Source: Microtetraspora niveoalba (GTDB lineage Bacteria; Actinomycetota; Actinomycetes; Streptosporangiales; Streptosporangiaceae). Taken from it: a stretch of DNA of 64,000 nt. The stretch's first letter is position 1; each line of letters begins with the position of its first letter. The stretch spans positions 155,402 to 219,401 of the forward strand of contig NZ_BBYM01000002.1 of the NCBI RefSeq assembly GCF_001570405.1, written 5' to 3'. The notes under the pieces are model-generated. The model saw nothing but the letters and a program-made list of their open reading frames with translations, did no database searches and had not been told where the DNA came from. The position numbers and the translations under genes are program-made. Shown one piece after another: positions 24,706 to 45,194 of this stretch.

Positions 24706-25185
24706 CTATCGGACGGCCGCCTGCGCGTACGCGCCGCGGAAGAAGAGGAGAGGCGGATGGTCGCGGCCGTCGCGCAGCTCGCGCACCGCGCCGATCACGA
24801 TCAGGTGGTCGCCGGCGTCGTGGACGTCGGCGACGTGGCAGTCGACGGTGGCCAGCGCCCCCTCCAGGTGGGCTGTCCCGTACGGCGAGCGCGTCCAGTC
24901 GACCGCGGCGAACTTGTCCGCGCCGCTGACGGCGAACGCCCGGCACACGTCCTGCTGGTCGGCGGCGAGGATGTTGACGGCGAACCGGCCGGTCGCCGCG
25001 ATCCTGGGCCAGCTCGTCGAGCTCTTCGACACGCAGAACAGCACCAGCGGCGGGTCCAGCGAGAGCGAGGAGAACGACTGGCAGGAGAAGCCGGCCGGCC
25101 CCTCGCCGTCGATCGAGGTGATCACCGTGACGCCGGAGGCGAACCGGCCGAGTACATCCTTGAAGCGGGCGGTCAGCCGTTCCAC
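24706..25185 (-). CDS. hsaB: Flavin reductase (HsaB-like)
   Basis: A 159-residue NAD(P)H:flavin reductase. It contains FASGVTVITSIDGEGPAGFS, CQSFSSLSLDPPLVLFCVSK and FAVNILAADQ, the flavin-pocket pattern of this family. It supplies reduced flavin to a two-component monooxygenase, here HsaA encoded just upstream in the operon. GTG 25185 lies inside the end of hsaC (13-base overlap). Assignment as HsaB rests on the hsaA-hsaC neighbourhood. Confidence 0.85.
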   Translation of the reverse strand: MERLTARFKDVLGRFASGVTVITSIDGEGPAGFSCQSFSSLSLDPPLVLFCVSKSSTSWPRIAATGRFAVNILAADQQDVCRAFAVSGADKFAAVDWTRSPYGTAHLEGALATVDCHVADVHDAGDHLIVIGAVRELRDGRDHPPLLFFRGAYAQAAVR

Positions 25186-26057
25186 GCGTGGCCCCAGTAG
25201 GCGTCCTCCGTGATCTCCTTGACCGACCAGGTGGCGTCGTCGACCAGGATCGCGTCGGTGCCGTACTCCACCTGGAACCCGCCGGGGGTGGCCGCGTAGA
25301 AGGAGACCATCTTGTCGTTGGTGTGCCGGCCCAGCGACTGGGCCACGGGGATCTGCCGCGCGTTGAACCGGTCCAGGCCGCGGCCGACGTCGTCGAGGGT
25401 CTCCAGCTCCAGCATGAAGTGGAAGATCGCGGCCGGCATCGGGGCCTCGCACAGCGCGACGCTGTGGTGGCGGGGGTTGCAGCCGAGGAAGCGGACCCAG
25501 TTCATCTGCCCCTCCGGGCCGCCGAACGTCGCGGCGGGGAAGCGGAGCGAGTCGCGGTGCCGGAAGCCGAGCACCTCGGTGTAGAAGGCGTAGGACGCCT
25601 CGATGTCGGCGGCGGACAGCACGACGTGGCCGAGCCCGAGGTTTCCGGTGACGAACCGCTGCGCGTGCGGGGTGACCACCGGGCTGTGGTCCAGCGCCGG
25701 GCCGTAGTAGAGCTCCAGGTGGTTGCCGTTCGGGTCGTCCACGTGGGCCAGCTCCTCGACCCGGCGGTCCGCGGCCTCCTCGGGCGTGCCGGGCTTGACC
25801 GCGTGGCCCGCGGCCTCGATCCTCGCGACGAGCTCGCGGAAGGCGGCCCGGTTGGGCAGCTCCCAGCCGGCCGCGAGCAGCCGGTCGGTCTCGCCGGGCA
25901 GGAACGCGAAGCGGGCGGCGTGCTCGTCCATCCGCAGGTAGAGTGCGTCGTCGCGCGGACCGGTGGTGGCGACGAGGCCGAGCACCTCGGTGCCGAAGGT
26001 CCGCCACTCGTCGAGCTTCGCCGTCTCGAAGCGCAGGTAACCAAGGGAGTGGATCAT
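25173..26057 (-). CDS. hsaC: Type I extradiol dioxygenase (HsaC/BphC-like)
   Basis: The 294-residue protein is a double glyoxalase-fold ring-cleaving dioxygenase. The Fe(II) ligands are His in LGHVVLSA, His in FHFMLELE and Glu in FQVEYGTDA; YYGP and the C-terminal YWGHAW are also typical. HsaC cleaves the catechol 3,4-DHSA made by HsaA/HsaB during steroid degradation. The next enzyme, hydrolase HsaD, is not in this window. The gene follows hsaA by 49 bases. Confidence 0.88.
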   Translation of the reverse strand: MIHSLGYLRFETAKLDEWRTFGTEVLGLVATTGPRDDALYLRMDEHAARFAFLPGETDRLLAAGWELPNRAAFRELVARIEAAGHAVKPGTPEEAADRRVEELAHVDDPNGNHLELYYGPALDHSPVVTPHAQRFVTGNLGLGHVVLSAADIEASYAFYTEVLGFRHRDSLRFPAATFGGPEGQMNWVRFLGCNPRHHSVALCEAPMPAAIFHFMLELETLDDVGRGLDRFNARQIPVAQSLGRHTNDKMVSFYAATPGGFQVEYGTDAILVDDATWSVKEITEDAYWGHAWNG

Positions 26058-26106
26058 GACATTTGCTCCAGGTGGGGGTGAAGTTCCTTCGACGTGACGG
26101 AGGCCG

Positions 26107-27276
26107 TCACATCATCACGTCGGTGACCTCGAGGCCGAGTGCGCCCTGGCCGTACATGGTCAGTGCGCGCTCCGGGTCGTTGACGGCGTGGACGCGGCCC
26201 GCGTGGGCGTCCCTCCAGCCGCGCTGGACCACGTTCCCGTGCGCGAGGGCGCGCCCGCCGGCGTTCTCGAACAGCAGGTCCACGGCCTTGATCGCCCGCT
26301 GGGTCGCCAGGACCTGGTCACGGCGGGTGCGCAGCCGCAGGTCGACGGGGAGTTCCCGCCCGCTCTCGACGGTCCGGAGCATCTCGCCGATGTTGCGCTC
26401 CATGAGCGCCCAGGCGGCGTCGATCTCGCTCGCCGCGGTGGCGATGCGGACCTGGGCGTGCGGGTCCTCGGCCACCTTCTGCCCGCCGTAGGAGACGCGG
26501 ACGCGATCCCTGGTGACCTTCAGGTACGCGTCCAGCGTGCCCTGGGCGATGCCCACGACGGGCGCGCTGATGGTGGTGCTGAAGACCGCGGCGAACGGCA
26601 GCCGGTACAGCGGTGCGGTGTTGACCTCGTTACCCGGGCAGTGGCAGGCGGATGTGTCGGCGAAGCTGAGGGTGCGGTGCTCCGGCACGAAGGCGTCCTC
26701 GACCACGATGTCGTTGCTTCCGGTGCCGCTCAGGCCGATGACGTTCCACACGTCCACGATGCGGTAGTCGGACCGGGGCAGCAGGAAGGTCCGCATGCCG
26801 ACCGGGACGCCGTCCGGTCCCGGGATCAGGCCGCCGAGGAACACCCAGCCGGCGTGGTCGCAGCCGGAGGAGAAGCTCCACCTGCCGCTGACCCGGAAGC
26901 CGCCCTCGACGGGCGTGATCGTGCCGGTGGGGGCGTAGGAGGAGGAGATCCGCGCGTGCGGGTCCGCGCCCCAGACGTCGTCCTGCGCCTGGACGGGGAA
27001 CAGCCCGAGCTGCCACGGGTGCACGCCGACGACCGACGCGACCCATCCGGTGGATCCGCAGGCGGCGGCGATCTCCATCACCGCCGTGTAGAACGTCACG
27101 GGGTCGGCTTCGAAGCCGCCGTACCGCTTCGGCTGGAGGAGCCGGAAGAAGCCGGTCTCCGCCAGCTCCTTCATCGTGGAGTCCGGGATCCGGCGGGCCT
27201 CCTCCGCCTCGCCGGCCCGCTCCCTGATCGCGGGGACGAGGCCGCGCACGGCCTCGAGAACCTCCAGCTCGGTCAT
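26107..27276 (-). CDS. hsaA: Flavin-dependent monooxygenase of acyl-CoA dehydrogenase fold (HsaA-like)
   Basis: The 389-residue protein has the class D flavin monooxygenase layout: an N-terminal helical domain with GFFRLLQPKRYGGFEADP, a middle beta domain (GCDHAGWVFLGGL, VIGLSGTGSNDIVVEDAFVP) and a C-terminal helix bundle with LATQRAIKAVDLLFENAGG. HsaA hydroxylates the phenol 3-HSA to a catechol using reduced flavin from HsaB. It is the first gene of the operon, divergent from the IclR regulator, and ATG 27276 has GGGAG upstream. Confidence 0.87.
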   Translation of the reverse strand: MTELEVLEAVRGLVPAIRERAGEAEEARRIPDSTMKELAETGFFRLLQPKRYGGFEADPVTFYTAVMEIAAACGSTGWVASVVGVHPWQLGLFPVQAQDDVWGADPHARISSSYAPTGTITPVEGGFRVSGRWSFSSGCDHAGWVFLGGLIPGPDGVPVGMRTFLLPRSDYRIVDVWNVIGLSGTGSNDIVVEDAFVPEHRTLSFADTSACHCPGNEVNTAPLYRLPFAAVFSTTISAPVVGIAQGTLDAYLKVTRDRVRVSYGGQKVAEDPHAQVRIATAASEIDAAWALMERNIGEMLRTVESGRELPVDLRLRTRRDQVLATQRAIKAVDLLFENAGGRALAHGNVVQRGWRDAHAGRVHAVNDPERALTMYGQGALGLEVTDVMM

Positions 27277-27362
27277 TCTCGCTCCCTTGTCGCTACGCCC
27301 CGTGATCATCCTCATACGGCGGGGTTGCGAGCACGCTATGCGAGGTGTTCCAATTCGAAATA

Positions 27363-27389
27363 GTGGTTTCCCGATGAACGGGAAACCAC
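27363..27389. promoter_or_regulatory. IclR operator 1 (perfect 11-bp arms)
   Basis: GTGGTTTCCCG and CGGGAAACCAC are perfect inverted arms around ATGAA, between the divergent hsaA and iclR genes. The core TTCCCG-N5-CGGGAA (27368-27384) recurs at 28279 and, with one change, at 29317. Confidence 0.85.
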
Positions 27390-27452
27390 GCGCGTTCTCC
27401 CACGTCGCGACGTCCCCAGCCGCCGCCTCTACCGTCACCAGGAGGAAGATCC

Positions 27453-28271
27453 ATGGGCGCACCGGCCTCGGCCACCTCACCGGAGCTGGAATCCTCCATG
27501 CTGGCCAGAGCGGCCCGCATCCTCTACTCGTTCAGCGGCCTCGACCCGGAGCTGTCGCTGACCGACGTCGTGCGGCGTACGGGTCTGCCCCGGTCGTCCG
27601 TGCACCGCATCCTCGACCAGCTCGTACAGCTCCGCGCGCTGGAGCGGGCGGGGTCCCGCTACCGGCTGGGTCTCGGCCTGATCGAGCTCGGCGGGCTCGC
27701 CGCGCACCAGAACCGGCTGCGCGAGGTCTGCCGGCCGCATCTGGACGCCCTGCACGAGAGCACCGGCGCGATGGTGCACCTGGCCATCCTGGACGGGCAC
27801 GAGATCGTCTACCTGGAGCGGCTCGGCGGCGCGTCGAACGGGCGGATCCCGTCCCGGCTGGGCGGACGGCAGCCCGCCTACTGCACGGGCGCGGGCAAGG
27901 CGCTGCTCGCCTTCTCCTGCGAGGGCACGGTGGCCCAGGTGATCGCGGAGGGGATGCCGCCCCGTACGGCGAACACCATCACCCGTCCGCAACTCCTGCG
28001 GCAGGAACTGGCACGTGTCAGGGATCGCGGGGTGGCCTTCGACCGCGAGGAGAACTACCGCGGCATCTTCTGCGTCGCCGCCCCCTTGCGCGACACCACG
28101 GGACGCCCGGTCGCGGCGATCTCCCTCAGCGGCGCCCCCGGCGCGATGAACACGCAACGGCTGATTCCGCCGCTGCTCACGACGGTGCGAGCCGTCTGGC
28201 AGACCCTGTTCTCCTCTCCGCCCCGGCGGCGCCGCGCCATGAGCGCGCATGCCTCGGTCCAGGCCGTGTGA
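27453..28271 (+). CDS. IclR-family regulator of the steroid-type locus
   Basis: A 272-residue IclR protein. The N-terminal winged helix (about 15-80) includes LSLTDVVRRTGLPRSSVHRI; the effector domain (95-250) includes GAMVHLAILDGHEIVYLERL, PAYCTGAGKALLA and FDREENYRGIFCVAAPL, all family hallmarks. The tail is rich in Arg. Its start is 63 bases from a perfect palindrome that also faces hsaA. The effector is unknown, perhaps a steroid catabolite. Confidence 0.92.
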   Translation: MGAPASATSPELESSMLARAARILYSFSGLDPELSLTDVVRRTGLPRSSVHRILDQLVQLRALERAGSRYRLGLGLIELGGLAAHQNRLREVCRPHLDALHESTGAMVHLAILDGHEIVYLERLGGASNGRIPSRLGGRQPAYCTGAGKALLAFSCEGTVAQVIAEGMPPRTANTITRPQLLRQELARVRDRGVAFDREENYRGIFCVAAPLRDTTGRPVAAISLSGAPGAMNTQRLIPPLLTTVRAVWQTLFSSPPRRRRAMSAHASVQAV

Positions 28272-32311: not shown

Positions 32312-33265
32312 TCAGTCCGCGGCGAGGTGGCCGAGGAGGCGGACGCGGGCGAGGCCGCCGTCGGGATGGACGTCGATCCGGACGTGCGTGGCCACGGGCG
32401 CGCCGGCGATGCGGAAACGGTGCGGCGTGTCGGGCAGCAGCCGGGTCCTGGGCAGCAGCTCGAACCAGGTCTCCCCGTCCGCCGTGCCGCTGATCGAGAC
32501 CGCGCCGGGGGCGTTGTGCACGAGGTTGGTCGTGTCGATCTCGGCGAGCTCGACGACTCCGGCGCCCGCCAGGCGGATCAGCAGCCAGTCGTTCCCGCCG
32601 TCGCGGCGGCGAGCGGTCTCCCAGCCCTCGGCCTGGTGCCGGGCGAGGCCGGGGGCGATGGCGTTGTTGGGCGAGGAGTAGAACTCGTCGGAGCAGCCGA
32701 CGACCAGCGCGCCGTTCGCCAGCGCGGCCAGGTCCAGGCTGAGACCGTCGTACGGGGTCAGGTCGGGTTCGACCTCGCCGTGCACGCGCAGCCGGGCGAT
32801 CCCCCCGTCGGGGAACATGTTCAGCCGGACGTGGGTGCGGCGCCGCTCGTCGGCCACCTCGAAGAAGTGCTCGGCGTCTCCCTTGAGTGCCTGCTTCGGG
32901 ACGATCTCCACCCAGTCCGCGGCCTCCAGTTCGCCGATCGTGGGATGGCCGTCGACGGCGGTCGCCTCGACGGAGGCGTGGGGCGGGTAGTTGCCCGTGA
33001 ACCAGGCGGTGTCGATCACGACGCCGCGGATCACACCGGGCAGGCCCAGCCGGATCAGGGCCCAGTCGTGGCCGGGCTCGCGCCGCCGCCGGGTCTCCCA
33101 CCCGTCGTAGACCTGCCCCTTGGGGCCGAAGGTGTGCGCCCGGAAGGCGGGGGCTCCGGGCCGGATCAGGTTCTCCCGCTCGGCGAAGGACTCGTCGCTG
33201 GCCGCGATGACCGCACCGCCGAAGGTGCGCAGGGCCAGGTCGGGCAGAGCGGTGAATTCGCGCAC
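32312..33265 (-). CDS. alc: Allantoicase
   Basis: The 317-residue protein is built of two related jelly-roll halves. The first has FGGAVIAASDESFAERENLI, DGWETRRRREPGHDWALIRL and HVRLNMFPDGGIARLRVHGE; the second repeats them as ALVVGCSDEFYSSPNNAI, GWETARRRDGGNDWLLIRLA and HVRIDVHPDGGLARVRLLGH. It hydrolyses allantoate to ureidoglycolate and urea. GTG 33265 is preceded by GAAAGG; a longer frame exists upstream. It is the last gene of the purine island after gcl, and the urea it releases fits the urease operon at 54.6 kb. Confidence 0.93.
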   Translation of the reverse strand: MREFTALPDLALRTFGGAVIAASDESFAERENLIRPGAPAFRAHTFGPKGQVYDGWETRRRREPGHDWALIRLGLPGVIRGVVIDTAWFTGNYPPHASVEATAVDGHPTIGELEAADWVEIVPKQALKGDAEHFFEVADERRRTHVRLNMFPDGGIARLRVHGEVEPDLTPYDGLSLDLAALANGALVVGCSDEFYSSPNNAIAPGLARHQAEGWETARRRDGGNDWLLIRLAGAGVVELAEIDTTNLVHNAPGAVSISGTADGETWFELLPRTRLLPDTPHRFRIAGAPVATHVRIDVHPDGGLARVRLLGHLAAD

Positions 33266-33336: not shown

Positions 33337-35055
33337 TCACGCCCCGTCGGGGAGGGGCTCGAACTCCTTGACGGCGTCGATGGCCGGGCCGTGCGGGGTG
33401 TTCGCCTCCCGCTCGATCATGATCTCGACGAGGACCGGGCGGCCGGTCGACCGCGCCTCCTTCCTGGCCCATTCGAGCGCCTCGCGGATGTCCCCCGGGC
33501 TGACGACCCGGCGGCCGGAGCAGCCGTACGCCTCCATGATCTTGACGTTGTCGGTGCCGTACTCGTCGTAGTGGATGTCGACCTGGTAGTTCATCTCGTA
33601 CGGGATCGACGCCTGGCGGATGAGCCCCAGGTACTCGTTGTTGATCATGATCAGGATGAGCGGAACGTTGTACTGCGCGCCGACGGCGAGCTCCTCCACC
33701 ATGTACTGGAAGCCGTAGTCGCCGACGATGCCCACGACCTCGGCGTCGGGCTCGCTGCTTTCGAGGGCCTTCCTGACACCGATCGCGGCCGGGATCTCCC
33801 AGCCCAGCGGGCCGGCCTGGCCGCAGATCTGGTAGTGCCGCGGCTTGTACGCCTTCTGGTGCTGGCCGCCCCAGATCTGGTACAGGCCGATGGCGGTGAC
33901 GAAGTAGGTGTCCTCGCCGAAGACCTCGTTGATCTCCTTGTAGACGCGCGGGGCCTTGATGGGGACCGTGTCGAAGTCCTCGCGGCGTCCCAGGCTCGCC
34001 TTGAGCTCCCGGATCCTGGCGACCCACGCGCCCGCCTCGCGGCCCGCGCCGCGTTCCCGGGCCATCTCGATCATGGCGCGCAGGAAGAGCCTGGCGTCGG
34101 AGACGACGCCCAGGTCGGGCTCGAAGACCCTGCCGATCTGGGTCGGCTCCACGTCCACGTGGATGAAGGCGCGCTCACCTCGGTAGACGTCGAGCCGGCC
34201 GGTGTGCCGGTCGCCGAAGCGGGCGCCGACGGCCAGCACCAGGTCGGACTCCAGGAAGGAGGCGTTGCCGTAGCGCTGCGAGGTCTGCACGCCGGTGATG
34301 CCGCAGAACAGCTCGTGGGTTTCGTCGATCGCGCCCTTGCCCATGAGGGTGACCTGGACCGGGATGTTCAGATACTCGGCGAGTTCGCGCAGCTCGGCGG
34401 CCGCCTCGGCGATGATCACGCCGCCGCCGGCGAGGATCAGCGGCCTCTCGGCGGCGAGCAGGAGGTCCAGGGCCCTCTCCACACGCGGCGGGTGCGGCTC
34501 GACCGGCGCGACCGGCAACGGGGCGTCGAGCGCCGGGTCGTAGTCGATGAGTTCCTGGGCCACGTCCACCGGGATGTCGATCAGGACGGGCCCCGGTCGC
34601 CCGGAGCGCGCGACGCGGAACGCCTCGCGGAAGATCCACGGAGCCGTGGCCGCCTCCTTGATCTGCACCGCCCACTTGGTGACAGGCTCGGCGATCGCGA
34701 CGATGTCGACCGCCTGGAAGCCCTCCTTGTCGAGCAGCGCGGTGGCCGCCTGGCCGGTGACGCAGACGATCGGGATCGAGTCCGCGTGCGCGGTGTACAG
34801 GCCGGTGATCATGTTGGTGCCGGCCGGGCCGGAGGTGCCGATCGCGACGCCGACCCTGCCGTTGGTGCGCGCCCAGCCGTCGGCCATGTGGGTGGCGCCC
34901 TCCTCGTGGCGGACGACCAGGTGCTCGATGCCGCCGACCTCCTCCATCGCCTTGTACAGCGGGAGGATCGCGGCGCCGGGGCAGCCGAACGCGACGTCGA
35001 CGCCCTCGGACTTCAGCACTTCGACGACCGCGTTCATCGCGGGGATCCTGGGCAT
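33337..35055 (-). CDS. gcl: Glyoxylate carboligase with Glu at position 51
   Basis: A 572-residue ThDP enzyme that matches E. coli Gcl along its length, including GTSGPAGTNMITGLY, EPTQIGRVFEPDLG, CGQAGPLGWEIPAA and the ThDP-Mg segment GDYGFQYMVEELAVGAQYN. It joins two glyoxylates into tartronate semialdehyde and CO2. E. coli Gcl is known for Val51 instead of the usual catalytic Glu; here residue 51 is Glu (RHEEGATHMADG). Neighbours glxR and hyi support the Gcl role. It abuts glxR (TGATG). Confidence 0.9.
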   Translation of the reverse strand: MPRIPAMNAVVEVLKSEGVDVAFGCPGAAILPLYKAMEEVGGIEHLVVRHEEGATHMADGWARTNGRVGVAIGTSGPAGTNMITGLYTAHADSIPIVCVTGQAATALLDKEGFQAVDIVAIAEPVTKWAVQIKEAATAPWIFREAFRVARSGRPGPVLIDIPVDVAQELIDYDPALDAPLPVAPVEPHPPRVERALDLLLAAERPLILAGGGVIIAEAAAELRELAEYLNIPVQVTLMGKGAIDETHELFCGITGVQTSQRYGNASFLESDLVLAVGARFGDRHTGRLDVYRGERAFIHVDVEPTQIGRVFEPDLGVVSDARLFLRAMIEMARERGAGREAGAWVARIRELKASLGRREDFDTVPIKAPRVYKEINEVFGEDTYFVTAIGLYQIWGGQHQKAYKPRHYQICGQAGPLGWEIPAAIGVRKALESSEPDAEVVGIVGDYGFQYMVEELAVGAQYNVPLILIMINNEYLGLIRQASIPYEMNYQVDIHYDEYGTDNVKIMEAYGCSGRRVVSPGDIREALEWARKEARSTGRPVLVEIMIEREANTPHGPAIDAVKEFEPLPDGA

Positions 35056-35936
35056 CAGCGGTCCCTCCCGGAGAGGTTCTCCGCGACCTTGAGCAGCGCG
35101 GAATGGTCGAGGCCGCCGTGGCCCTGGGCGCGGGCGGAGGCGATGAGCTGGGCGACGAGGGCGCCCATGGGGACGGCCACGCCGGCGCCGCGGGCGGCGT
35201 CGAGGACGATGCCCATGTCCTTGTGGTGCAGGTCGACGCGGAATCCCGGGCGGAAGTCGCGGGCCAGCATCGACGCGCGCTTGATGTCGAGGACGCGGCT
35301 GGCCGCCAGGCCCCCGGCGAGCACGTCGAGCCCCGCCGCGGCGTCCACTCCCGCCGCCTCCATCAGCACGATGGCCTCGGCGACGAGGGCGTACGTGCCG
35401 CCGACGACGAGCTGGTTGGCCGCCTTGACGACCTGCCCCGCCCCGGCGGGGCCGACCAGCTCGTACGTCTTGCCGACGGCCGCGAAGACCGGGGCGGCGG
35501 CGTCGAAGTCCTCCCGCGAGCCGCCCACCATGATGGACAGGACCGCGTCGACCGCGCCCTTCTCGCCGCCGGAGACCGGGGCGTCCAGCACGCGCAGGCC
35601 CCTGGCCGCCCCCTCGCGGGCGACCTTCCGCGAGGTCTGCGGCGTGATCGTGGAGAAGTCGATCACGAGAACGCCCGGCTCGGCATTGGCGAGCACGCCG
35701 TCCTCGCCGAACATGACCGCCTCGACCTGCGGGTCGGCCGGGAGCATCGTGGCGACGACCTCGGCGCCCGCGACGGCCTCGGCGACGCCGCCCGCGGTGT
35801 TCCCTCCGGCGGCCCGGAGCCGGGCGAGGGCGTCCTCGCTGAGGTCGAAGCCGGTCACGTCGTGTCCTGCTCCGACGAGGTGCCCGGCCATGGGGGATCC
35901 CATGATGCCGAGCCCGATGAAACCGATCGTGCTCAC
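35055..35936 (-). CDS. glxR: 2-Hydroxy-3-oxopropionate (tartronate semialdehyde) reductase
   Basis: A 293-residue beta-hydroxyacid dehydrogenase. It starts with GFIGLGIMGSPMAGHLVGAG (NAD(P) loop), has the substrate loop DAPVSGGEKGA, the catalytic Lys in GQVVKAANQLVVG and the C-terminal LHHKDMGIVLDAARG. It reduces the Gcl product to D-glycerate. It overlaps gcl by one base and follows hyi by 13, so gcl-glxR-hyi are one transcript. Confidence 0.92.
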   Translation of the reverse strand: MSTIGFIGLGIMGSPMAGHLVGAGHDVTGFDLSEDALARLRAAGGNTAGGVAEAVAGAEVVATMLPADPQVEAVMFGEDGVLANAEPGVLVIDFSTITPQTSRKVAREGAARGLRVLDAPVSGGEKGAVDAVLSIMVGGSREDFDAAAPVFAAVGKTYELVGPAGAGQVVKAANQLVVGGTYALVAEAIVLMEAAGVDAAAGLDVLAGGLAASRVLDIKRASMLARDFRPGFRVDLHHKDMGIVLDAARGAGVAVPMGALVAQLIASARAQGHGGLDHSALLKVAENLSGRDR

Positions 35937-35949
35937 GCGTTCTCCTCTC

Positions 35950-36783
35950 CTAGGACTCGCGGGTGCGGTCGCCGTCGGGCCCGCCGGGTCGTACGCCCGG
36001 ATCGGGCAGGCGCCCGATCCAGCCGAAGTCCAGCAGGGCGTCCTTGTACTCCAGGCCGATCCAGCCGTCGTAACCGTGCCGGTCCAGGACGGAGAAAAGA
36101 TGGCCGAAATCGAGCGTCCCCGTGCCCGGACGGCCGCGGCCGGGGACGTCGGCGATCTGCACGTGGCCGATCCTGGTCGCGTACTCGCCGATCACGGCGT
36201 CCAGGTCCTCCCCCATCCGGGCGAGGTGGTACAGGTCGCACAGGATCTTCACGTTCGGCTCGCCTGTCCGGTCGGCGACCTCGGCGGCGGCCTTGGCCGA
36301 GACAAGCGGATAGGAGGGCGACTCGTGGACGTTGAGCGCCTCCACGAGGACCACCGCGCCGATCCGGGCGGCGGCCCGCGCGGCGATCGCGAGGTTCTCC
36401 GCGGCCAGTTCGTCCTGCTCCGCCGGGTCCAGGCCGTACACGCGGTTGCCGTACAGCGCGTTCAGGGCCGTGCAGCCGAGCTCCCCGGCGATGCCCACGG
36501 CGACGTCGACGTTGTCGCGGAAGCGCGCGCTGTCGGCGGGGCGGGAGAGGAGGCCGCGGCCTCCGGCCGCGATGTCGTCGGCGAAGTTGAGGCCGGCGAG
36601 GTGGACGCCCGCGTCCCTGATCGCGCGGACGAAGGCGTCCACCTCCGTGTCCGCCGGCACCGCCTCGGCGAACGGCCACCAGAACTCGACCCCGTCGAAC
36701 CCGGCCGCCTTCACCGCGGCCGGGCGCTCCAGCAGCGGCAGGCCGGTGAAGAGGATCGAGCCGTTGACGTCGAATCTCGTCAT
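35950..36783 (-). CDS. hyi: Hydroxypyruvate isomerase
   Basis: The 277-residue TIM-barrel protein has FDVNGSILFTGLPLLERP, GFDGVEFWWPFAE, LVEALNVHESPSYPL (metal Glu), CDLYHLARMGEDL (Asp/His ligands), HVQIADVPGRGRPGTGTLDF and GLEYKDALLDFGWI, the Hyi pattern. It interconverts tartronate semialdehyde and hydroxypyruvate. The last 20 residues are Pro/Gly-rich and extra. Its ATG overlaps the stop of the gene upstream by four bases. Confidence 0.92.
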   Translation of the reverse strand: MTRFDVNGSILFTGLPLLERPAAVKAAGFDGVEFWWPFAEAVPADTEVDAFVRAIRDAGVHLAGLNFADDIAAGGRGLLSRPADSARFRDNVDVAVGIAGELGCTALNALYGNRVYGLDPAEQDELAAENLAIAARAAARIGAVVLVEALNVHESPSYPLVSAKAAAEVADRTGEPNVKILCDLYHLARMGEDLDAVIGEYATRIGHVQIADVPGRGRPGTGTLDFGHLFSVLDRHGYDGWIGLEYKDALLDFGWIGRLPDPGVRPGGPDGDRTRES

Positions 36784-37160
36784 GCCTTCTTCTCCTTGTA
36801 GGTCTTCCAGCTCCCGAACTCGGTGATGTCGTACAGCTCGGCGTGGGAGCTGGGAGCCCGGCGCAGGAGCATCGCGAACGAGGAGGTGCCGTCGGCGAGC
36901 TCGATCACGCCGAGTTCCAGTTCCGGGGGTTCGGCGGGGATCAGCCGGTCGCGCAGGACGTCCATCGGGACGTCGTAGAGCTCGCCCCCGATGGCGGCGC
37001 CTCCGTGCGACACCGGCGCGAGCCCGGGGCACCGGTCGGCCACGGAGTAGAAGCGGTACTTGGGAGCGGTGACGGTCTCGGCCACCAGCGGGGCGCCGTC
37101 GAGCAGGTGGTGCAGCGGGCCGCCCCGCATCGCGCCGCCGTTGAGGAACATCAGGGCCAT
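36780..37160 (-). CDS. Allophanate hydrolase C-terminal-like (GGCT-fold) protein
   Basis: A 126-residue protein with MFLNGGAMRGGPLHHLLDGA, a core strand TAPKYRFYSVADRCPGLAPV, GGELYDVPMDVL and LGVIELADGTSSFAML. This corresponds to the small C-terminal gamma-glutamylcyclotransferase-fold domain found fused to allophanate hydrolase (AtzF), here as a free protein. In AtzF that domain acts after the amidase step. Its position ahead of hyi-glxR-gcl suggests a role in ureide-derived carbamate chemistry, but no activity is known to me. Confidence 0.7.
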   Translation of the reverse strand: MALMFLNGGAMRGGPLHHLLDGAPLVAETVTAPKYRFYSVADRCPGLAPVSHGGAAIGGELYDVPMDVLRDRLIPAEPPELELGVIELADGTSSFAMLLRRAPSSHAELYDITEFGSWKTYKEKKA

Positions 37161-37280: not shown

Positions 37281-38711
37281 TCAGCCGAGGAGCTGCTCGA
37301 TGGCGCCGATGCCGAAGTAGCCGACGAACACCAGGCTGATCACCCAGAGCAGCCAGTGGATCTCGCTGAACCTGCCGCGCACGGCCTTGATCAGCGTGTA
37401 CGCGATGACGCCGGCGCCGACGCCGTTGGTGATGGAGTAGGTGAACGGCATCAGGGCGATGGTGAGGAACGCCGGGATCGCCAGGTCCATGTCGTCCCAG
37501 GCGATCTTGCGTACGGCGGCCATCATCAGCGCTCCGACGAGGACCAGCGCGGCCGACGCCGCCTGGGCGGGCACCACCGCGGCGAGCGGGGTGAGGAACA
37601 TCGCGGCGGCGAAGAGCACGCCCGTCACGACGGAGGCGAGCCCGGTGCGCGCGCCCTCCCCGACGCCGGCCGCCGACTCCACCACCACCGTGTTCGCCGA
37701 GGCGCCCGTGCCGCCTCCGATGACGGCGCCGAGGCCGTCGATCGTGAGGATCTTGCCGAGCCCACGGATCTTGCCGTCCTTGGCGAGCCCGGCCTCCTCG
37801 CCGACGCCGAGGATCGTGCCCATGGCGTCGAAGAACCCGGAGAGCACGAGGGTGAAGAGCACGGCGGTCGCGGTGAGCGCCCCGGCCGCGCCGAAGCCGC
37901 CGAACAGGTCCACCTTGAACAGCAGGCCGAAGTCGGGCGCCGCCACGATCTGGTCGGGCACCTTCGGGACGATCAGGCCCCACGCCTGGGGGTCGATCAC
38001 CGCCACCGCGTTGATCGCCACGGCGATCACGGTGGCCGCCACGATGCTGATCAGGATCGCGCCGGGGATCCGCCGCGAGAAGAGCGCGAACATCAGCAGG
38101 AGGCCGGCGCAGAACACGGCGACGGGCCATCCGCTGAGGTGCCCCCCGTCCCCCATGGTCAGCGGCGTCCCCTCGCCGCGGGTGACGAACCCGGCCTTCG
38201 CCAGGCCGATCAGCGCGATGAACATGCCGATGCCGACGCCGATGGCGTGCTTGAGCGGCGTGGGGATGGCGTCCATGATGAGCTGCCGGACGCCGGTGAG
38301 CGCGAGGATCACGATCAGCACGCCTTCGAGCACGACCAGGCCCATGGCCTGGTTCCACGTCATGTAGGGGGCGGCCTGGAACGCCACCACGGGGGCGACG
38401 GCGAGCCCCGAGGCGAGGGCGAAGGGGGCGTTCCCCACCACGCCCATCAGGATCGTGGTGAGCGCCGCAGAGAGGGCGACCGCCGTGGTGAGCTGCGGGA
38501 TCGTGAGCGACGCGCCGGTCACGTCCTTGGCGTCGCTGAGCATGATGGGGATGAGCAGGACGATGTAGGCGACGGCCACGAACGTGGTGACGCCGCCGCG
38601 GACCTCCCTGGCGATCGTCGTTCCCCGGCCGGTGAGGTCGAACAGGCGGTCGAGCAGGTTCCGGGAGGCCCCGGGGGCCTCGCCGGACGGCCTGGTCTGC
38701 AACTGGGTCAT
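37281..38711 (-). CDS. AzgA-type purine permease (NCS2 family)
   Basis: A 476-residue membrane protein with about 12-14 helices. It opens with the cytoplasmic phrase REVRGGVTTFVAVAYIV, and contains GNAPFALASGLAVAPVVAFQ, GIGMFIALIGLAKAG and FTLVLSGFFDAMGTILGVG, followed by GTGASANTVVVESAAGVGEG. These are the AzgA/PbuG (adenine/guanine/hypoxanthine) markers of NCS2. It imports purine bases with protons or sodium and feeds the xanthine dehydrogenase and uricase encoded nearby. Confidence 0.9.
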   Translation of the reverse strand: MTQLQTRPSGEAPGASRNLLDRLFDLTGRGTTIAREVRGGVTTFVAVAYIVLLIPIMLSDAKDVTGASLTIPQLTTAVALSAALTTILMGVVGNAPFALASGLAVAPVVAFQAAPYMTWNQAMGLVVLEGVLIVILALTGVRQLIMDAIPTPLKHAIGVGIGMFIALIGLAKAGFVTRGEGTPLTMGDGGHLSGWPVAVFCAGLLLMFALFSRRIPGAILISIVAATVIAVAINAVAVIDPQAWGLIVPKVPDQIVAAPDFGLLFKVDLFGGFGAAGALTATAVLFTLVLSGFFDAMGTILGVGEEAGLAKDGKIRGLGKILTIDGLGAVIGGGTGASANTVVVESAAGVGEGARTGLASVVTGVLFAAAMFLTPLAAVVPAQAASAALVLVGALMMAAVRKIAWDDMDLAIPAFLTIALMPFTYSITNGVGAGVIAYTLIKAVRGRFSEIHWLLWVISLVFVGYFGIGAIEQLLG

Positions 38712-38857
38712 GGTCGGGCCCTCCCAAGGGCGTCGTCGACCTGCGGACGGCCGGATGCCGGATCCCGGCGGTCCGCGCGGTTCGAAGGGGGGTGCGGTTG
38801 TGGGGTCCGTCCCGTCCACGGGCGGGGGCGGGGGCGGCGGGGGCGATGCCCCGTCGG

Positions 38858-41176
38858 TCAACTGCTTCCGGTGATGTGTTCCGGACGAACCGGCACTCGG
38901 GTGAGTGCGAGACCCGTGGCGTCGCGGATGGCCGCGACGATCGCGGGGGTCGAGGAGAGCGTGGACGGCTCACCCGCTCCGCGCAGCCCGTACGGGGCAC
39001 GCGGATCGGCGTTCTCGAGGATCTCCAGGCGCATCGGAGGCATGTCGAGGATCGTGGGGATCAGGTAGTCGGTGAACGAGGGGTTGCGCACCCTGCCGTT
39101 CTCCACCACGATCTCCTCCATCACGGCGAGGCCGAGGCCCTGCGCGCTGCCACCGTGGATCTGCCCTTCCAACGCGACACGGTTGAGGATCCTTCCCACG
39201 TCCTGGACGGCGGCCAGCTCGACGACCTTCACCAGGCCCAGATCGACGTCGACGTCCACCACGGCCCGGTGGACGCACAGGGCGAGCTGGGCGTGCGAGT
39301 CGCCTCTCCCGGTCACGGGGTCCATGCCCGTGGTCGGCCGGTGGTGGTACTCGCGGGTCTCCTCGATGACGGCGTCCCCGAGGAGCTCCGCGATGGTCCC
39401 GAGGACGCCGGCGCTCTCGGAGACGACCTTGTCGCCGGTGAACGACAGGTCGTCGCGGGCGTGGCCGAACCGGGCGGCGGCCAGGGCGGCCATGCCCTCA
39501 CGCACGGCCTGGCAGGCGGTCATGACCGCGCCGCCGGTCATGTAGGACTGGCGCGACGCGGAGCTCGACCCGGCGTCGCCGACCCGGTTGTCGGCCGGCT
39601 GGATGACGACCCGCCGCACGCCCAGTTCGGTGCGGGCGATCTGGGCCTCCAGCGTCACCAGTCCCTGGCCGACCTCGGCGGCCGCCGTGTGGACCATCGC
39701 GACCGGCTCCCCGCCGATGACCTCCAGCCGGACGCGCGCGGTGGAGTAGTCGTCGTAGCCTTCGGAGAAGCAGATGTTCTTCAGGCCCACGCCGTATCCG
39801 ACGCCGCGCCGCACCCCCTCGCCGTGGGTGGTCTGCGACACGCCGCCCGGCAGGTCGCGGAGGTCGCCGGTGTCCGCCGGGGCGGGCATGGGCAGCTCGC
39901 GGGCCGTCTGGAGCATCTCGGCCATCGGCAGCGGCGCCCAGATGATCTGGCCGGTGGCCAGCGCGCTGCCCTCGGCGGCGGCGTTGACCTGGCGGACCGT
40001 GACCGGGTCGAGCCCGCAGGCGTCGGCGAGCCTGTCCATCATCGACTCGAACGCGAAGCAGGCCTGGACCGCGCCGAAGCCGCGCATCGCGCCGCAGGGC
40101 GGGTTGTTGGTGTAGACGCCGTAGGCGTCGATCCTGACGTTCGGGATCACGTACGGTCCCACGGCGAGGGACGCCGCGTTGCCGACCACGTTCTTCGTCG
40201 AGGACGTGTACGCGCCGCCGTCGAGGATGATCTCCACGTCGGCGTAGACGATGCGGCCGTCCTTCGTCGCGCCGTACTCGTAGCGCATCTGGGCGGGGTG
40301 GCGGTGGACGTGGCCGAAGAACGACTCGTACCGGTTGTAGACGATCTTGACGGGTTTGCCGGTGCGGAGCGCGAGCATCGCGGCGTGGATCTGCATCGAC
40401 AGGTCCTCGCGGCCGCCGAAGGCGCCGCCGACGCCGGACAGCGTCATGCGGATCTTGTCCTCGGCCAGGCCGAGGCAGGGGCCGATCTGCTCGAGGTCGT
40501 TGTGCATCCACTGGGTGGCGACGTAGAGGTCCACCCCGCCGTCCTCGGCCGGGATGGCGAGGCCGGACTCCGGGCCGAGGAACGCCTGGTCCTGCATCCC
40601 CACCTGGAACTCGCCGGAGACCACCACCTCGGCCAGCTCCCTGGCCGCGTCCACGTCCCCGACCCGTACGGGCTGGTGGCGGGCGACGTTGCCGCGCGGC
40701 TGGACCCGCGGGTACGCCGGGTCGAACGCGGCCCGGCGGGCGTCGGTGAGCGGTTCGAGGACCTCGTACTCGATCCGGATCTTCTCCAGGGCCCGGCGCG
40801 CGGTCTCCGGGTGGTCGGCCGCGACGAGCGCGATCGGCTCGCCCTGGTGGCGTACCTCGTCGAACGCGAGGACCGGCTGGTCCCACGTGTGGTCCACGCC
40901 GAAGTGCTTGCGCCCCGGGACGTCCTCGTGGGTGAGGACGGTCCACACGCCGGGGTGGGCGAGCGCCTCGGAGGTGTCGATGGACAGGATCTTCGCGCGG
41001 GGGTGCGGGCTGCGCAGCGTGGCGCCCCACAACATCCCGTCGATCCACAGGTCGGAGGAGTAGGCGAACTCGCCTCTGACCTTCAGCACCCCGTCGGGGC
41101 GGAGCGCGCTGTCGCCCACTCCCCCGCCGCCCGGGGCCGCGATGTCGCGCGGTGCCCGCGCCGGTGCGACGCTCAT
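38858..41176 (-). CDS. xdhA: Xanthine dehydrogenase, molybdopterin-binding subunit
   Basis: A 772-residue molybdenum hydroxylase large subunit. It has LKVRGEFAYSSDL, the Mo-site loops SGVGGAFGGREDLSMQIHAA and CGAMRGFGAVQACFAFE, and near the end GLRGAGEPSTLSSTPAIVAA with the catalytic base Glu. The remaining two subunits are separate genes 1.4 kb upstream. It oxidises hypoxanthine and xanthine to urate in the cytoplasm. The ATG overlaps the deaminase stop (ATGA). Subunit naming differs between species. Confidence 0.92.
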   Translation of the reverse strand: MSVAPARAPRDIAAPGGGGVGDSALRPDGVLKVRGEFAYSSDLWIDGMLWGATLRSPHPRAKILSIDTSEALAHPGVWTVLTHEDVPGRKHFGVDHTWDQPVLAFDEVRHQGEPIALVAADHPETARRALEKIRIEYEVLEPLTDARRAAFDPAYPRVQPRGNVARHQPVRVGDVDAARELAEVVVSGEFQVGMQDQAFLGPESGLAIPAEDGGVDLYVATQWMHNDLEQIGPCLGLAEDKIRMTLSGVGGAFGGREDLSMQIHAAMLALRTGKPVKIVYNRYESFFGHVHRHPAQMRYEYGATKDGRIVYADVEIILDGGAYTSSTKNVVGNAASLAVGPYVIPNVRIDAYGVYTNNPPCGAMRGFGAVQACFAFESMMDRLADACGLDPVTVRQVNAAAEGSALATGQIIWAPLPMAEMLQTARELPMPAPADTGDLRDLPGGVSQTTHGEGVRRGVGYGVGLKNICFSEGYDDYSTARVRLEVIGGEPVAMVHTAAAEVGQGLVTLEAQIARTELGVRRVVIQPADNRVGDAGSSSASRQSYMTGGAVMTACQAVREGMAALAAARFGHARDDLSFTGDKVVSESAGVLGTIAELLGDAVIEETREYHHRPTTGMDPVTGRGDSHAQLALCVHRAVVDVDVDLGLVKVVELAAVQDVGRILNRVALEGQIHGGSAQGLGLAVMEEIVVENGRVRNPSFTDYLIPTILDMPPMRLEILENADPRAPYGLRGAGEPSTLSSTPAIVAAIRDATGLALTRVPVRPEHITGSS

Positions 41177-42558
41177 GCGTGAACCTCCTTGGCGGCGGCG
41201 AAGCCCTGTTCCTCCGCGAGCCGGGCGAGACGGCGACGGGCCGCGCCGCCCGCGCGGGCCAGCTCGTCCTGGGCGACCGTGCGCAGCTCGCCGTCCTCGA
41301 CGATCGTCTCGCCGCCCACCAGGAGGAGGGCGAGCGGCGGCTGCCGGCCGCCGAAGACCAGGGCGCACACCGGGTCGGCGACCGCCTCGGCGAAGCCGTC
41401 GAGCCGCCACAGGGCGATGTCGGCGAGCTTGCCCGCCTCCAGCGAGCCGATCTCCTCCTGGCGGCCCAGGTTCCCGGCCCCGCCGATGGTGGCCATCTCC
41501 AGGGCCTGCCGCGCGGTGACGGCGGCCGGGCCGTACCTGGCCCGCTGGAACAGCAGCGCCTGGCGCATCTCCCCGAACAGCGAGGTCAGCTCCGAGGAGG
41601 CGCTGCCGTCCACGCCGAGGCCGACGTTCGCGCCGCGGCGGAGCAGCTCGGTCACGCGGGCGACGCCGGCGCCGAGGCGGCCGTTGGAGCTGGGGCAGTG
41701 CGCCGTGCCGGTCCGCGTACGGGCGAACGTCCCGATGTCGGAGTCGCTGAGGTGGACGGCGTGGGCGAACCACACGTCCGGGCCGAGCCAGCCGAGCTTC
41801 TCCATGTACTCCAGGGGACGCATCCCGAGCTGGGCCAGGCAGTGCTCCTCCTCGTCGAGGGACTCGGCGAGATGGGTGTGCAGCCGCACGTTCTTGGACC
41901 TGGCCAGCGAGGCCGCCTCGGTCATCAGGTCGGCGCTGACCGTGAACGGCGAGCAGGGGCCGACCGCCACGCGCAGCTTCGAGGAGAAGGAGGGGTCGTG
42001 GTAGGTGTCGACCGCGTCGGCCGTCGCGTCGAGGATCTCGTCGAGCTTCTCGACGAGGACGTCCGGCGGCAGGCCGCCCTGGGAGGCGCCCCTGTCCATC
42101 GATCCCCTGACGGGGTGGAAGCGGATGCCCAGCTCCTGCGCCGCCTCGACCTCCGCCGCGAGCAGGTCGCCGCGGCCCTTCGGGAAGATGTAGTGGTGGT
42201 CGCTGGACGTGGTGCAGCCGGACAGGGCCAGGTAGCCCAGGCCCGCTCCGGCCGCCCCCTTGACGACCTCGGCGTCCATCGCCGCCCACAGCGGGTAGAG
42301 CGCCACCAGCCACTCGAACAGCGTGCCGTCCTGGGCCAGCCCCTGCGAGGCCCACTGGTAGAGGTGGTGGTGGGTGTTCACCAGGCCGGGCGTGGCCAGG
42401 CAGCCCGTGCCGTCGACCCTGGTGGCGCCCGGGACCGCCGGGGCGGGGCCGGGGCCGAGCGCCGCGATCCTGTCGCCTTCGACGTGGATGTGGCCGGAGG
42501 GGATCTCCGCGCCCACGACCGGGGCGATGTGGACGTTCTCGATCACCATGGAATTCAT
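41173..42558 (-). CDS. 8-Oxoguanine deaminase (ATZ/TRZ amidohydrolase family)
   Basis: A 461-residue metal-dependent deaminase. The metal ligands are NTHHHLYQWASQG, HTHLAESLDEEE (His with the following Glu) and GVDGSASSELTSLFGEMR; SGCTTSSDHHYIFPKGRGDL is typical of the 8-oxoguanine deaminase group. It would convert 8-oxoguanine to uric acid and ammonia. It sits between xanthine dehydrogenase subunit genes and overlaps xdhA, so oxidised guanine enters the urate pathway here. Hydroxydechloroatrazine-type activity is a less likely alternative. Confidence 0.82.
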   Translation of the reverse strand: MNSMVIENVHIAPVVGAEIPSGHIHVEGDRIAALGPGPAPAVPGATRVDGTGCLATPGLVNTHHHLYQWASQGLAQDGTLFEWLVALYPLWAAMDAEVVKGAAGAGLGYLALSGCTTSSDHHYIFPKGRGDLLAAEVEAAQELGIRFHPVRGSMDRGASQGGLPPDVLVEKLDEILDATADAVDTYHDPSFSSKLRVAVGPCSPFTVSADLMTEAASLARSKNVRLHTHLAESLDEEEHCLAQLGMRPLEYMEKLGWLGPDVWFAHAVHLSDSDIGTFARTRTGTAHCPSSNGRLGAGVARVTELLRRGANVGLGVDGSASSELTSLFGEMRQALLFQRARYGPAAVTARQALEMATIGGAGNLGRQEEIGSLEAGKLADIALWRLDGFAEAVADPVCALVFGGRQPPLALLLVGGETIVEDGELRTVAQDELARAGGAARRRLARLAEEQGFAAAKEVHA

Positions 42559-42616: not shown

Positions 42617-43090
42617 TCACGGGTTCTCCGCCCTGCGGTTCGCGGCGAGCCGTACGGCGGCCAGGATCTTCTCGTAGCCGGTGCACCGGCACAGGTTGCC
42701 CGCGAGGGCCTCGCGGATGTCGGCGTCCGACGGCCGGGGAACCCGCTCGATCAGGTCGTGGGCCTGGACCAGGAGGCCGGGGGTGCAGAAGCCGCACTGG
42801 ACGGCGCCGCACTCGACGAACGCCTCCTGGATCGGGGCCTGCCGGTCGCCCTCGGCGAGTCCCTCGACCGTCCTGACCCGCCGCCCCTCCGCCTGGCCGG
42901 CCGCGACCAGGCAGGAGCAGACGGGCACCCCGTCGAGGAGGACCGTGCAGGATCCGCACTCGCCCTGCTCGCAGGCGTTCTTGGAGCCGGGCAGGCCCAT
43001 GCGCTCCCGCAGGACGTAGAGCAGGCTCTCGCCCTCCCAGACGTCGTCGGCGGTCTCCTCGCGGCCGTTGACGGTGAAGCCGACGCGCAT
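42617..43090 (-). CDS. xdhC: Xanthine dehydrogenase, 2Fe-2S subunit
   Basis: The 157-residue protein has the plant-type cluster motif CEQGECGSCTVLLDG with its fourth Cys in VCSCLVAA, and the second cluster in CGAVQCGFCTPGLLVQA and LAGNLCRCTGYEKIL. It passes electrons from the Mo centre to FAD. The start overlaps the stop of the FAD subunit gene. Family length is about 160, so it is complete. Confidence 0.94.
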   Translation of the reverse strand: MRVGFTVNGREETADDVWEGESLLYVLRERMGLPGSKNACEQGECGSCTVLLDGVPVCSCLVAAGQAEGRRVRTVEGLAEGDRQAPIQEAFVECGAVQCGFCTPGLLVQAHDLIERVPRPSDADIREALAGNLCRCTGYEKILAAVRLAANRRAENP

Positions 43091-43971
43091 CACCCGGCCC
43101 TCCTCTCCGTACGTCCGGCCCGGAGGTCGTTCCAGGCCCAGGTCAGGGTGCGGCGCGCCATCACGCCGATGGCGTGCCTGCGATAGCCGGCGGTGCCGCG
43201 TACGTCGTCGATCGGCGAGGCGGCCTCCGTGGCCAGCTCGCCGAAGCGCCTGAGCACCGCGGGTTCGAGTGGTGCGTCCCAGTCCAGCTCGGCGGCGAGG
43301 AACTCCTCGGCGGCGCGGGCCCGGCGCGGGGTCGGGGCGGCCGAGCCGATCGCGGCGCCGACCCGCCGCTCGCCGGGATGGAGCGCGATCGCGAACGAGC
43401 AGACCGCGATCACCATGGCGTTGCGGGTGCCGACCTTGGAGAAGTACTGCGGGCCGCTCGCCGGGCTCATCCAGAACGCGCGGATCAGCTCGTCGGGCAG
43501 CAGCGTGTTCCGCTTGACCCCGAGGTAGAACTCGTCGGCCGGGATCATCCGCACGCCGCGGGCGGCCGACTCGACCTCGATGACCGCGTCCCCGGCCAGC
43601 AGCGCCGGGTGGCTGTCCCCGGCGGGCGAGGCCGCGCCCAGGTTGCCTCCCACGGTGCCGCGGTTGCGGATCTGCGGCGAGCCGACCGTACGGGCCGCCT
43701 GGGCCAGGCCGGGCAGCCGGTCGCCGAGCTCGGCGATCAGCCGCGCGTACGGCACGCCCGCGCCGATCCGCAGCCGCCCGTCCGCCTCGGCGGTCCAGCG
43801 GGTGAGCTCGGCGACCCGGTTCAGGTCGAGCAGCGCTGCGGGCCGGTGGACGTCGAAGTTGAGTTCCACCATCATGTCGGTGCCGCCCTGGATGGGCGCC
43901 GCCTCCGGCAGGTCGGCCTTGGCGGCCAGTGCCTCCGCCCACGTGGCGGGTCGCAGGAATTCCACGGTCAC
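43090..43971 (-). CDS. xdhB: Xanthine dehydrogenase, FAD-binding subunit
   Basis: A 293-residue medium subunit. It has FLRPATWAEALA, the FAD loop IQGGTDMMVELNFDVHRP, the second loop TVGSPQIRNRGTVGGNLGAA and a CO-dehydrogenase C-terminal domain. GTG 43971 overlaps the uricase stop by four bases (GTGA) and its own stop touches the next start. It hands electrons to NAD. The uricase-xdhB-xdhC order implies tight coupling of urate formation and removal. Confidence 0.92.
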   Translation of the reverse strand: MTVEFLRPATWAEALAAKADLPEAAPIQGGTDMMVELNFDVHRPAALLDLNRVAELTRWTAEADGRLRIGAGVPYARLIAELGDRLPGLAQAARTVGSPQIRNRGTVGGNLGAASPAGDSHPALLAGDAVIEVESAARGVRMIPADEFYLGVKRNTLLPDELIRAFWMSPASGPQYFSKVGTRNAMVIAVCSFAIALHPGERRVGAAIGSAAPTPRRARAAEEFLAAELDWDAPLEPAVLRRFGELATEAASPIDDVRGTAGYRRHAIGVMARRTLTWAWNDLRAGRTERRAG

Positions 43972-44849: not shown

Positions 44850-45194
44850 GTTCGCTCCTTCTGTGTGGCGGGCGAGCGGCTGCGGCACGTGCTCTTGCGC
44901 GGGCGCCGGGGTGGGGCCGGCGCCCCGCCTCCGCGACGCCGTATGTCGACGCGGGCCGGCCTCCCCGCCGGCGGGGACGTTCCGCGTTTCGGTTGCGTTC
45001 GGTTGCGCGTTCGGTTGCAAGCAGTACACAGATCGGGGCGCCGGATGGTCCAGCAGCACGGAATCTGAAGTGAAGTTCCTCTTTATCGCGACTTTTCGTG
45101 TCATGCTCCAATTGGTTTTTTCCTCGTCACTACCGAGGGTTGTAGGGGATCGACCTCTCGATCGGCCTCCTCACCGAGGGAAGGGAGACCCGCG
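44850..45194. promoter_or_regulatory. Divergent uricase-pucR control region with TTCGGTTGC repeats
   Basis: About 345 bases. TTCGGTTGC occurs three times in direct orientation at 44988, 44998 and 45010, that is 10 and 12 bases apart, roughly one helical turn. This partly resembles the core TTGGTT of the B. subtilis PucR box. A CCAATTGG palindrome with a following T-run is near 45109-45121, and CTCTCGATCGG lies just before pucR. No gene is supported inside it. Confidence 0.5.

Follow-up and report, generated by a model that had tools for sequence, protein, structure and literature searches.

A probable glyoxylate carboligase with glutamate at residue 51, encoded in a putative purine-degradation operon of Microtetraspora niveoalba

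The window analysed here, a stretch of 64 000 nucleotides of Microtetraspora niveoalba DNA, carries at 33337–35055 on the minus strand a gcl gene whose 572-residue product, P0002, is probably a working glyoxylate carboligase (Gcl; EC 4.1.1.47) of a purine-degradation operon, with a glutamate at position 51 and canonical ThDP activation; on the same reading Glu51 would be ancestral within Gcl, and the change to Val51 would have happened a single time, along with a series of coupled replacements, in the branch that holds the enzymes read from E. coli, Pseudomonas, Vibrio and named Streptomyces. Nearly all ThDP enzymes use a catalytic Glu, and E. coli Gcl is the textbook case of one that does without it. 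We infer the reaction of P0002 and the role of its Glu51 as follows: glyoxylate would be supplied from urate via allantoate and ureidoglycolate, P0002 would join two glyoxylates with release of CO2, and GlxR would reduce the resulting tartronate semialdehyde to glycerate. Glu51 of P0002 would pair with N1' of the aminopyrimidine in canonical ThDP activation, unlike in E. coli Gcl.

The gene, its protein and its operon

The gcl frame starts with ATG, and counting from the gene start at 35055, with the translation and the alignment, places the Glu51 codon of the RHEEG motif at 34903–34905 (minus strand). BLASTP aligns P0002 with E. coli K-12 Gcl (gcl b0507; NC_000913.3, L085) at 50% identity over 584 columns and sets E51-E52 of P0002 (RHEEGA) opposite V51-E52 of E. 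coli Gcl (RHVEGA); the first gap comes only after residue 63 and residues 1–51 are therefore ungapped. The sequence-only reading of this DNA had made both of these claims, the ungapped alignment over residues 1–51 and the Glu51 in place of Val51, and both hold; alignment with Gcl and acetolactate synthases, which it had proposed as a check, gives a Gcl-type protein with Glu51 facing Val51. By its residue 51, P0002 thus lies outside the Val51-type subclass of Gcl.

Pfam finds the three domains of a ThDP enzyme in N–M–C order (PF02776, PF00205 and PF02775; TPP_enzyme_N, M and C). The Gcl equivalog NF008431 (PRK11269) scores 899.6 bits against a cut-off of 791, and the second Gcl model, TIGR01504, misses its cut-off (693.9 against 711.2 bits). 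The latter is passed by several other Glu51 members (L099, 721.9; L100, 716.7; L109, 826.3; L163, 940.7; L136, 722.4) and missed by another (L080, 693.8), so this cut-off does not split Glu51 from Val51 proteins. The cut-off of the acetohydroxyacid synthase (AHAS; EC 2.2.1.6) model TIGR00118 is not reached (502.5 of 538.35 bits), and all acetolactate synthase models stay under their cut-offs among the NCBIfam matches listed.

Among sequences of solved structures, the best matches to P0002 are six Gcl sequences from Deinococcus metallilatus and E. coli, and in entries 7ct6 and 8i05 RHVEG aligns with the RHEEG of P0002. The solved Gcl structures found come from E. coli, in wild-type and mutant forms, and from Deinococcus; neither a structure nor an assay of a Glu51 Gcl was found. 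Oxalyl-CoA decarboxylase was also considered as an identity for the protein and rejected: its named chains score 136–155 bits against 606–630 for Gcl among the matches listed. The AF2 model of P0002 has a mean pLDDT of 90 and a pTM of 0.92, with pLDDT below 50 at residues 476–483 and 487–489, which span L478/I479. Helix 51–65 of the model starts with Glu51, a position which we take to be the canonical place of the catalytic Glu. The top Foldseek match is E. coli Gcl (PDB entries 2PAN and 8I01) with a TM of 0.96 and 49% identity; AHAS chains (IlvB/IlvI), which share the ThDP fold and the catalytic Glu with P0002, reach a TM of 0.84–0.90 at 28–31% identity among the matches listed.

The next gene after gcl in the direction of transcription encodes an allantoicase (32312–33265, minus strand; TIGR02961, 366.6 bits, cut-off 277.9; PF03561). 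Directly adjoining on the opposite side is glxR, for a tartronate semialdehyde reductase (2-hydroxy-3-oxopropionate reductase; 35055–35936, minus strand; TIGR01505, 354.8 bits, cut-off 340.75), followed by a hyi-like gene of the hydroxypyruvate isomerase family (35950–36783, minus strand; Pfam AP_endonuc_2), for which the best NCBIfam model, TIGR03234, gives 265.4 bits, below its cut-off of 353.45. The sequence-only reading had gcl flanked by hyi and glxR; the glxR part stands, while hyi lies one gene further, beyond glxR, and the other direct neighbour is the allantoicase gene. The link to hyi and glxR, as in the gcl-hyi-glxR neighbourhood of E. coli, is therefore present; such linkage is typical of Gcl, not strictly defining.

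The minus strand continues with a gene for a stand-alone allophanate-hydrolase C-terminal domain protein (36780–37160; PF21986, AH_C), 126 residues long, which at its end runs into the beginning of the hyi-like gene, and with one for a transporter of the xanthine/uracil permease family (37281–38861; PF00860). A frame at 38858–42355 contains the xanthine dehydrogenase molybdopterin subunit (PF02738, PF20256, PF01315; gene start inside the frame), and two overlapping frames at 42617–44292 correspond to the xanthine dehydrogenase-type [2Fe-2S] and FAD subunits (PF01799 and PF00111 in 42617–43942; PF00941 and PF03450 in 43090–44292). Guanine deaminase is the enzyme expected among xanthine dehydrogenase genes; what is found amid them here is an amidohydrolase of the 8-oxoguanine deaminase family (41173–42558, minus strand; NF006055, 619.5 bits, cut-off 532). 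Urate oxidase follows (43968–45104, minus strand; TIGR03383, 334.7 bits, cut-off 168.4; PF01014), and a PucR-type purine catabolism regulator (45213–46721, plus strand; PF07905, PF13556) is divergent from the operon. From gene content and pathway knowledge we read the cluster as a putative purine-to-glyoxylate-to-glycerate operon; no gene for the ureidoglycolate-splitting step was identified in the window cluster. Elsewhere in the window, the minus strand carries a BphC-like extradiol dioxygenase gene (25173–26057) beside a frame (26107–27480) resembling an acyl-CoA-dehydrogenase-type flavoprotein, and 25173–27480 is perhaps an aromatic catabolic cluster.

The source assembly comprises 8,467,783 bases at 99.86% completeness. 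A second, Val51-type gcl elsewhere in it had been named in advance as a finding that would speak against P0002 as a Gcl; no second Gcl was found in the assembly, the next best match (L280) being 36% identical to P0002 and AHAS-like, with ilvH beside it. Within the source genus one of four genomes, the source itself, has a Gcl-level match (E up to 1e-100), and what another of them (G001) has is L015, an AHAS-like protein of 37% identity encoded near ilvH. In Planomonospora (L122) and Planobispora (L123) glxR, hyi and the allantoicase gene stay near gcl. The gcl cluster may have been gained or lost within the source genus.

Occurrence of Glu51 and Val51 proteins

A family-level search of 200 genomes, the source included, gave 93 matches in 87 genomes at a threshold of E up to 1e-120. 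Residue 51 was read in 70 of the 93 matches and is Glu in 63 and Val in seven; the Glu51 proteins are 74–100% (39 proteins) or 65–68% (24 proteins) identical to P0002 and all seven Val51 proteins 51–54%. A lone oddity or error is ruled out by these 63 of 70 matches. Over all loci the survey covers 228 distinct Gcl-like proteins, 131 with Glu, 96 with Val and one with Met at position 51. The sequence-only reading had asked how far Glu51 extends in other loci and understated the answer, which is a large group, well beyond one protein. A sequencing or assembly artefact, or a misalignment by one residue, has nothing in its favour and is excluded by 131 distinct Glu51 proteins from many genomes of several phyla and an alignment that is ungapped around the site. 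A Glu51 protein served as the seed of the searches, several of which were limited to 30 or 80 loci, and Val51 is under-sampled, so the Glu and Val counts are not natural frequencies; in Pseudomonadota, where 30 of 39 matches were read, 29 are Val51 and the sole Glu51 protein is that of the seed genome.

All 123 distinct proteins with at least 56% identity to P0002, a set chosen without regard to residue 51, have Glu there. This bears on whether the glutamate might be idle, the enzyme working as E. coli Gcl does with no acid used at N1'. In favour of it, the E. coli reaction can run without the Glu, as reportedly found by Kaplun in 2008 (cited in PMC3534367). Set against it are the 123 of 123 glutamates and the place of Glu51 at the opening of helix 51–65 in the model, and we consider an idle Glu51 very unlikely.

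The Glu51 genera include Planomonospora, Planobispora, Nocardiopsis, Actinomadura, Nonomuraea, Amycolatopsis, Saccharopolyspora, Lentzea, Pseudonocardia and Plantactinospora, and Glu51 Gcls, as judged from their sequences, are common among the actinomycetes sampled. A few further Glu51 records are labelled Chloroflexaceae (L159), Planctomycetaceae (L167), Alphaproteobacteria (L165 from Alsobacter soli, and L170) and Proteobacteria (L163). Val51 is found in E. coli and in the named Pseudomonas, Vibrio and Streptomyces loci that were read. In group f18 two members (L092 and L093) are Glu51 and the remaining members read are Val51. A tblastn search of plasmids (E up to 1e-100) returned one record, an 11.85-Mb Nonomuraea gerenzanensis replicon. 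The Glu51 gcl of one genome (G134; L070/L088) has one in-frame TGA, from a broken gene or a sequencing error.

Both types occur together in G178, G066 and G161, in each of which both copies were read. Seven Pseudonocardia genomes (G1249, G1250, G1251, G1263, G1268, G1272 and G1292) have two copies: the copies at about 53% identity were read as Val51 and those at 66–67% fall in the Glu51 tier by identity, Glu51 having been read in three of the seven (L150, L157 and L160). L286, the single match in its genome, is Val51. The Pseudonocardia-centred genus search also gave the Met51 protein (RHMEG; L290 in G1274), which has 52% identity and Val51-clade surroundings; glxR is present at its locus, hyi is absent within the short flanks, and the second copy in that genome (L291) is Val51.

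Gene context and pocket residues of the Glu51 group

Gene context was counted over distinct proteins with hyi and glxR both within 6 kb, flanks of at least 3.5 kb on both sides being taken as wide; the count covered 127 Glu51 and 93 Val51 proteins (out of 131 and 96, respectively), and the remainder, with short flanks, was left out. Both genes are present at 66 of 73 Glu51 and 32 of 34 Val51 loci with wide flanks and at 46 of 54 and 51 of 59, respectively, with shorter flanks. The AHAS loci (14 of 15 short-flanked) differ from that of P0002 in having ilvH as a neighbour in 15 of 15 cases and hyi or glxR in none of 15; ilvH is near none of the 127 Glu51 loci counted. Neither hyi nor glxR is found at five of the 73 wide-flanked Glu51 loci (L136, L140, L161, L276 and L277); at L136 and L140 a GntR regulator adjoins gcl. 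Two further wide-flanked Glu51 loci have one of the two genes and a kinase: hyi with glycerate kinase at L266 and glxR with a PfkB-family kinase at L273. NF008431 is matched by 47 of 50 Glu51 representatives at E up to 1e-238, which is the model cut-off as estimated from the relation of score to E; three deep Chloroflexota rows fell below this cut-off in separate scoring.

These three proteins (L263, L264 and L265; L275, L276 and L277 in wider form) resemble P0002 in having Glu51 and 48–53% identity to it and differ from it in lying under both Gcl cut-offs, as L287 from Pseudonocardia, also Glu51, does; L276 and L277, with wide flanks, have sulfatase and luciferase-like monooxygenase genes as neighbours and no hyi or glxR near. 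It is possible that L263–L265 and L287 represent a separate ThDP carboligase with another substrate. They were dropped from the comparison of residues, which covers 127 Glu51 (reduced from 131), 96 Val51 and 16 AHAS proteins; L263–L265 were kept in the survey, the tree, the constraint test and the model count, and the wide copies and L287 in the context count.

At 41 positions the two Gcl groups share a residue that reaches 95% or more in each of them and no more than 10% in AHAS. Seven of these, I393, L395, I398, Q417, L421, L478 and I479 (E. coli numbering), are shared by P0002 with E. coli Gcl and are found in 127 of 127 Glu51, 96 of 96 Val51 and none of the 16 AHAS proteins; at 393/421/478/479 AHAS has V/M/M/V, unlike P0002. 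For Gcl, I479 and Q115 are listed in a table of corresponding active-site residues (PMC13327070), and the S-pocket is assigned to standard positions 476/477 in PMC3534367. As read from the aligned sequences, Gcl-type pocket residues are common to Glu51 and Val51 proteins, and P0002 probably functions as a Gcl. An identity as acetolactate synthase was rejected on the models, the residues and the gene context.

A broader alternative is that P0002 is some other ThDP carboligase, acetolactate-synthase-like or a mixed ligase of glyoxylate and 2-oxo acids, which stands beside hyi and glxR by chance. Its residues L31, V48, E51, N81, A149, D282 and W395 follow the AHAS and not the Val51-Gcl state, and the two copies in the seven Pseudonocardia genomes could mean divided roles. 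Against this, the gene context equals that of Val51 Gcl with ilvH near none of the 127 loci, I393, L421, L478 and I479 are of the Gcl type in every one of the 127 Glu51 proteins, and the source genome has no other gcl to serve GlxR and Hyi; we regard this alternative as unlikely.

Polarity of residue 51 and the accompanying substitutions

A tree of 92 representatives (50 Glu51, 28 Val51 and 14 AHAS) was built under LG+C20 with the residue-51 column removed and rooted on AHAS. All Val51 proteins fall in a single clade (100/100) that lies within a paraphyletic grade of Glu51 proteins, so Val51 looks to have been derived once; the nearest relatives of this clade are the Glu51 proteins L109, L163, L165, L167 and L170, joined to it at 100/100. 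Constraining all Glu51 proteins to one clade costs 19.2 log-likelihood units and is not rejected (AU p 0.089), and the same holds once the three deep Chloroflexota rows and two long rows of AHAS are taken out (15.3 units, AU p 0.056), where the tree of the reduced rows, the trait column again removed, has the Val51 clade once more at 100/100 inside the Glu51 grade. The nesting is therefore favoured, not proven. In both layouts a single Glu-to-Val change is the cheapest, because every AHAS row of the tree (14 of 14) has Glu at the catalytic position. We infer the polarity of the change from this; within Gcl, Val51 most likely arose a single time from Glu51.

The Glu51 and Val51 groups can be told apart at 33 positions, and a shifted substrate of the Glu51 type is therefore possible. 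Five positions are uniform within each group and have no residue shared between them, namely 31 (L/N), 51 (E/V), 81 (N/D), 392 (Y/S) and 420 (E/T) in P0002 numbering, Glu51 type first; they correspond to 31, 51, 82, 396 and 424 of E. coli Gcl, which accordingly differs from P0002 by N31, Val51, D82, S396 and T424. Positions 48, 410 and 448 (S or G/D at the last) are also without a shared residue. AHAS has the state of the Glu51 group at 51 and 81 in 16 of 16 proteins (Asn at 81) and at 31 in 14 of 16 (Leu). The five sister proteins of the Val51 clade already have its M149, W240, R351 and A395 (P0002 numbering) and retain L31, E51, N81, Y392 and E420; in AHAS, residue 149 is A in 16 of 16 proteins and residue 395 is W or F. 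The residues of the sister proteins suggest a path toward Val51 that was taken in steps and closed with a joint change.

These results bear on the opposite polarity, in which Val51 would be ancestral in Gcl and the actinomycete lineage would have regained Glu. In its favour, the polarity is set by the AHAS root alone, a long branch separates AHAS from Gcl (1.4 + 1.4 changes per column as drawn), and a single clade of all Glu51 proteins is not rejected. Such a reversion nevertheless needs at least one extra change, since the best tree places the Val51 clade within the Glu51 grade, and it has to contend with Glu in all of the AHAS outgroup rows and with sister proteins that have taken on M149, W240, R351 and A395 ahead of the five uniform positions; we consider it improbable. 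With Glu51 as the ancestral state, we tentatively propose, as a possibility at somewhat less than even chances, a one-time switch in which remodelling of a Glu51 ancestor came first (M150 and A399, in E. coli numbering, among others) and Glu51 then changed to Val with L31N, N82D, Y396S, E424T and a new Asp448, which would shift the acid off N1' and change the activation of ThDP; Glu51, intermediate and Val51 Gcls would then be a natural series for the same reaction with and without the canonical acid, sometimes within one genome.

Among 3000 superfamily members Glu51 was found in 94% and Val in 3%, and the Val substitution was called characteristic of the entire glyoxylate carboligase family and taken as a sign of a different mechanism (PMC3534367, 2012). 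The Gcl of P. aeruginosa, 74% identical to E. coli Gcl, is active (PMC12694930). We found no report of a Glu51 Gcl in the part of the open-access literature that was covered, and an earlier mention, there or in subscription papers, is possible. In our survey Val51 marks one clade, and we therefore treat it as defining a subclass and not the family. P0002 thus appears, from sequence, context and phylogeny, to be the counter-example to the Val51 rule that the sequence-only reading had suggested, and by sequence comparison the loss of the catalytic Glu would be one later event inside the Gcl family. If the Glu51 Gcls catalyse the same reaction, glyoxylate carboligation does not depend on this loss, which would then be no general trait but a single event with defined accompanying substitutions. 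Why Gcl dispenses with the Glu would become testable through natural Glu51, intermediate and Val51 enzymes, and Glu51 Gcls may offer new scaffolds for Gcl-based carbon-fixation pathways.
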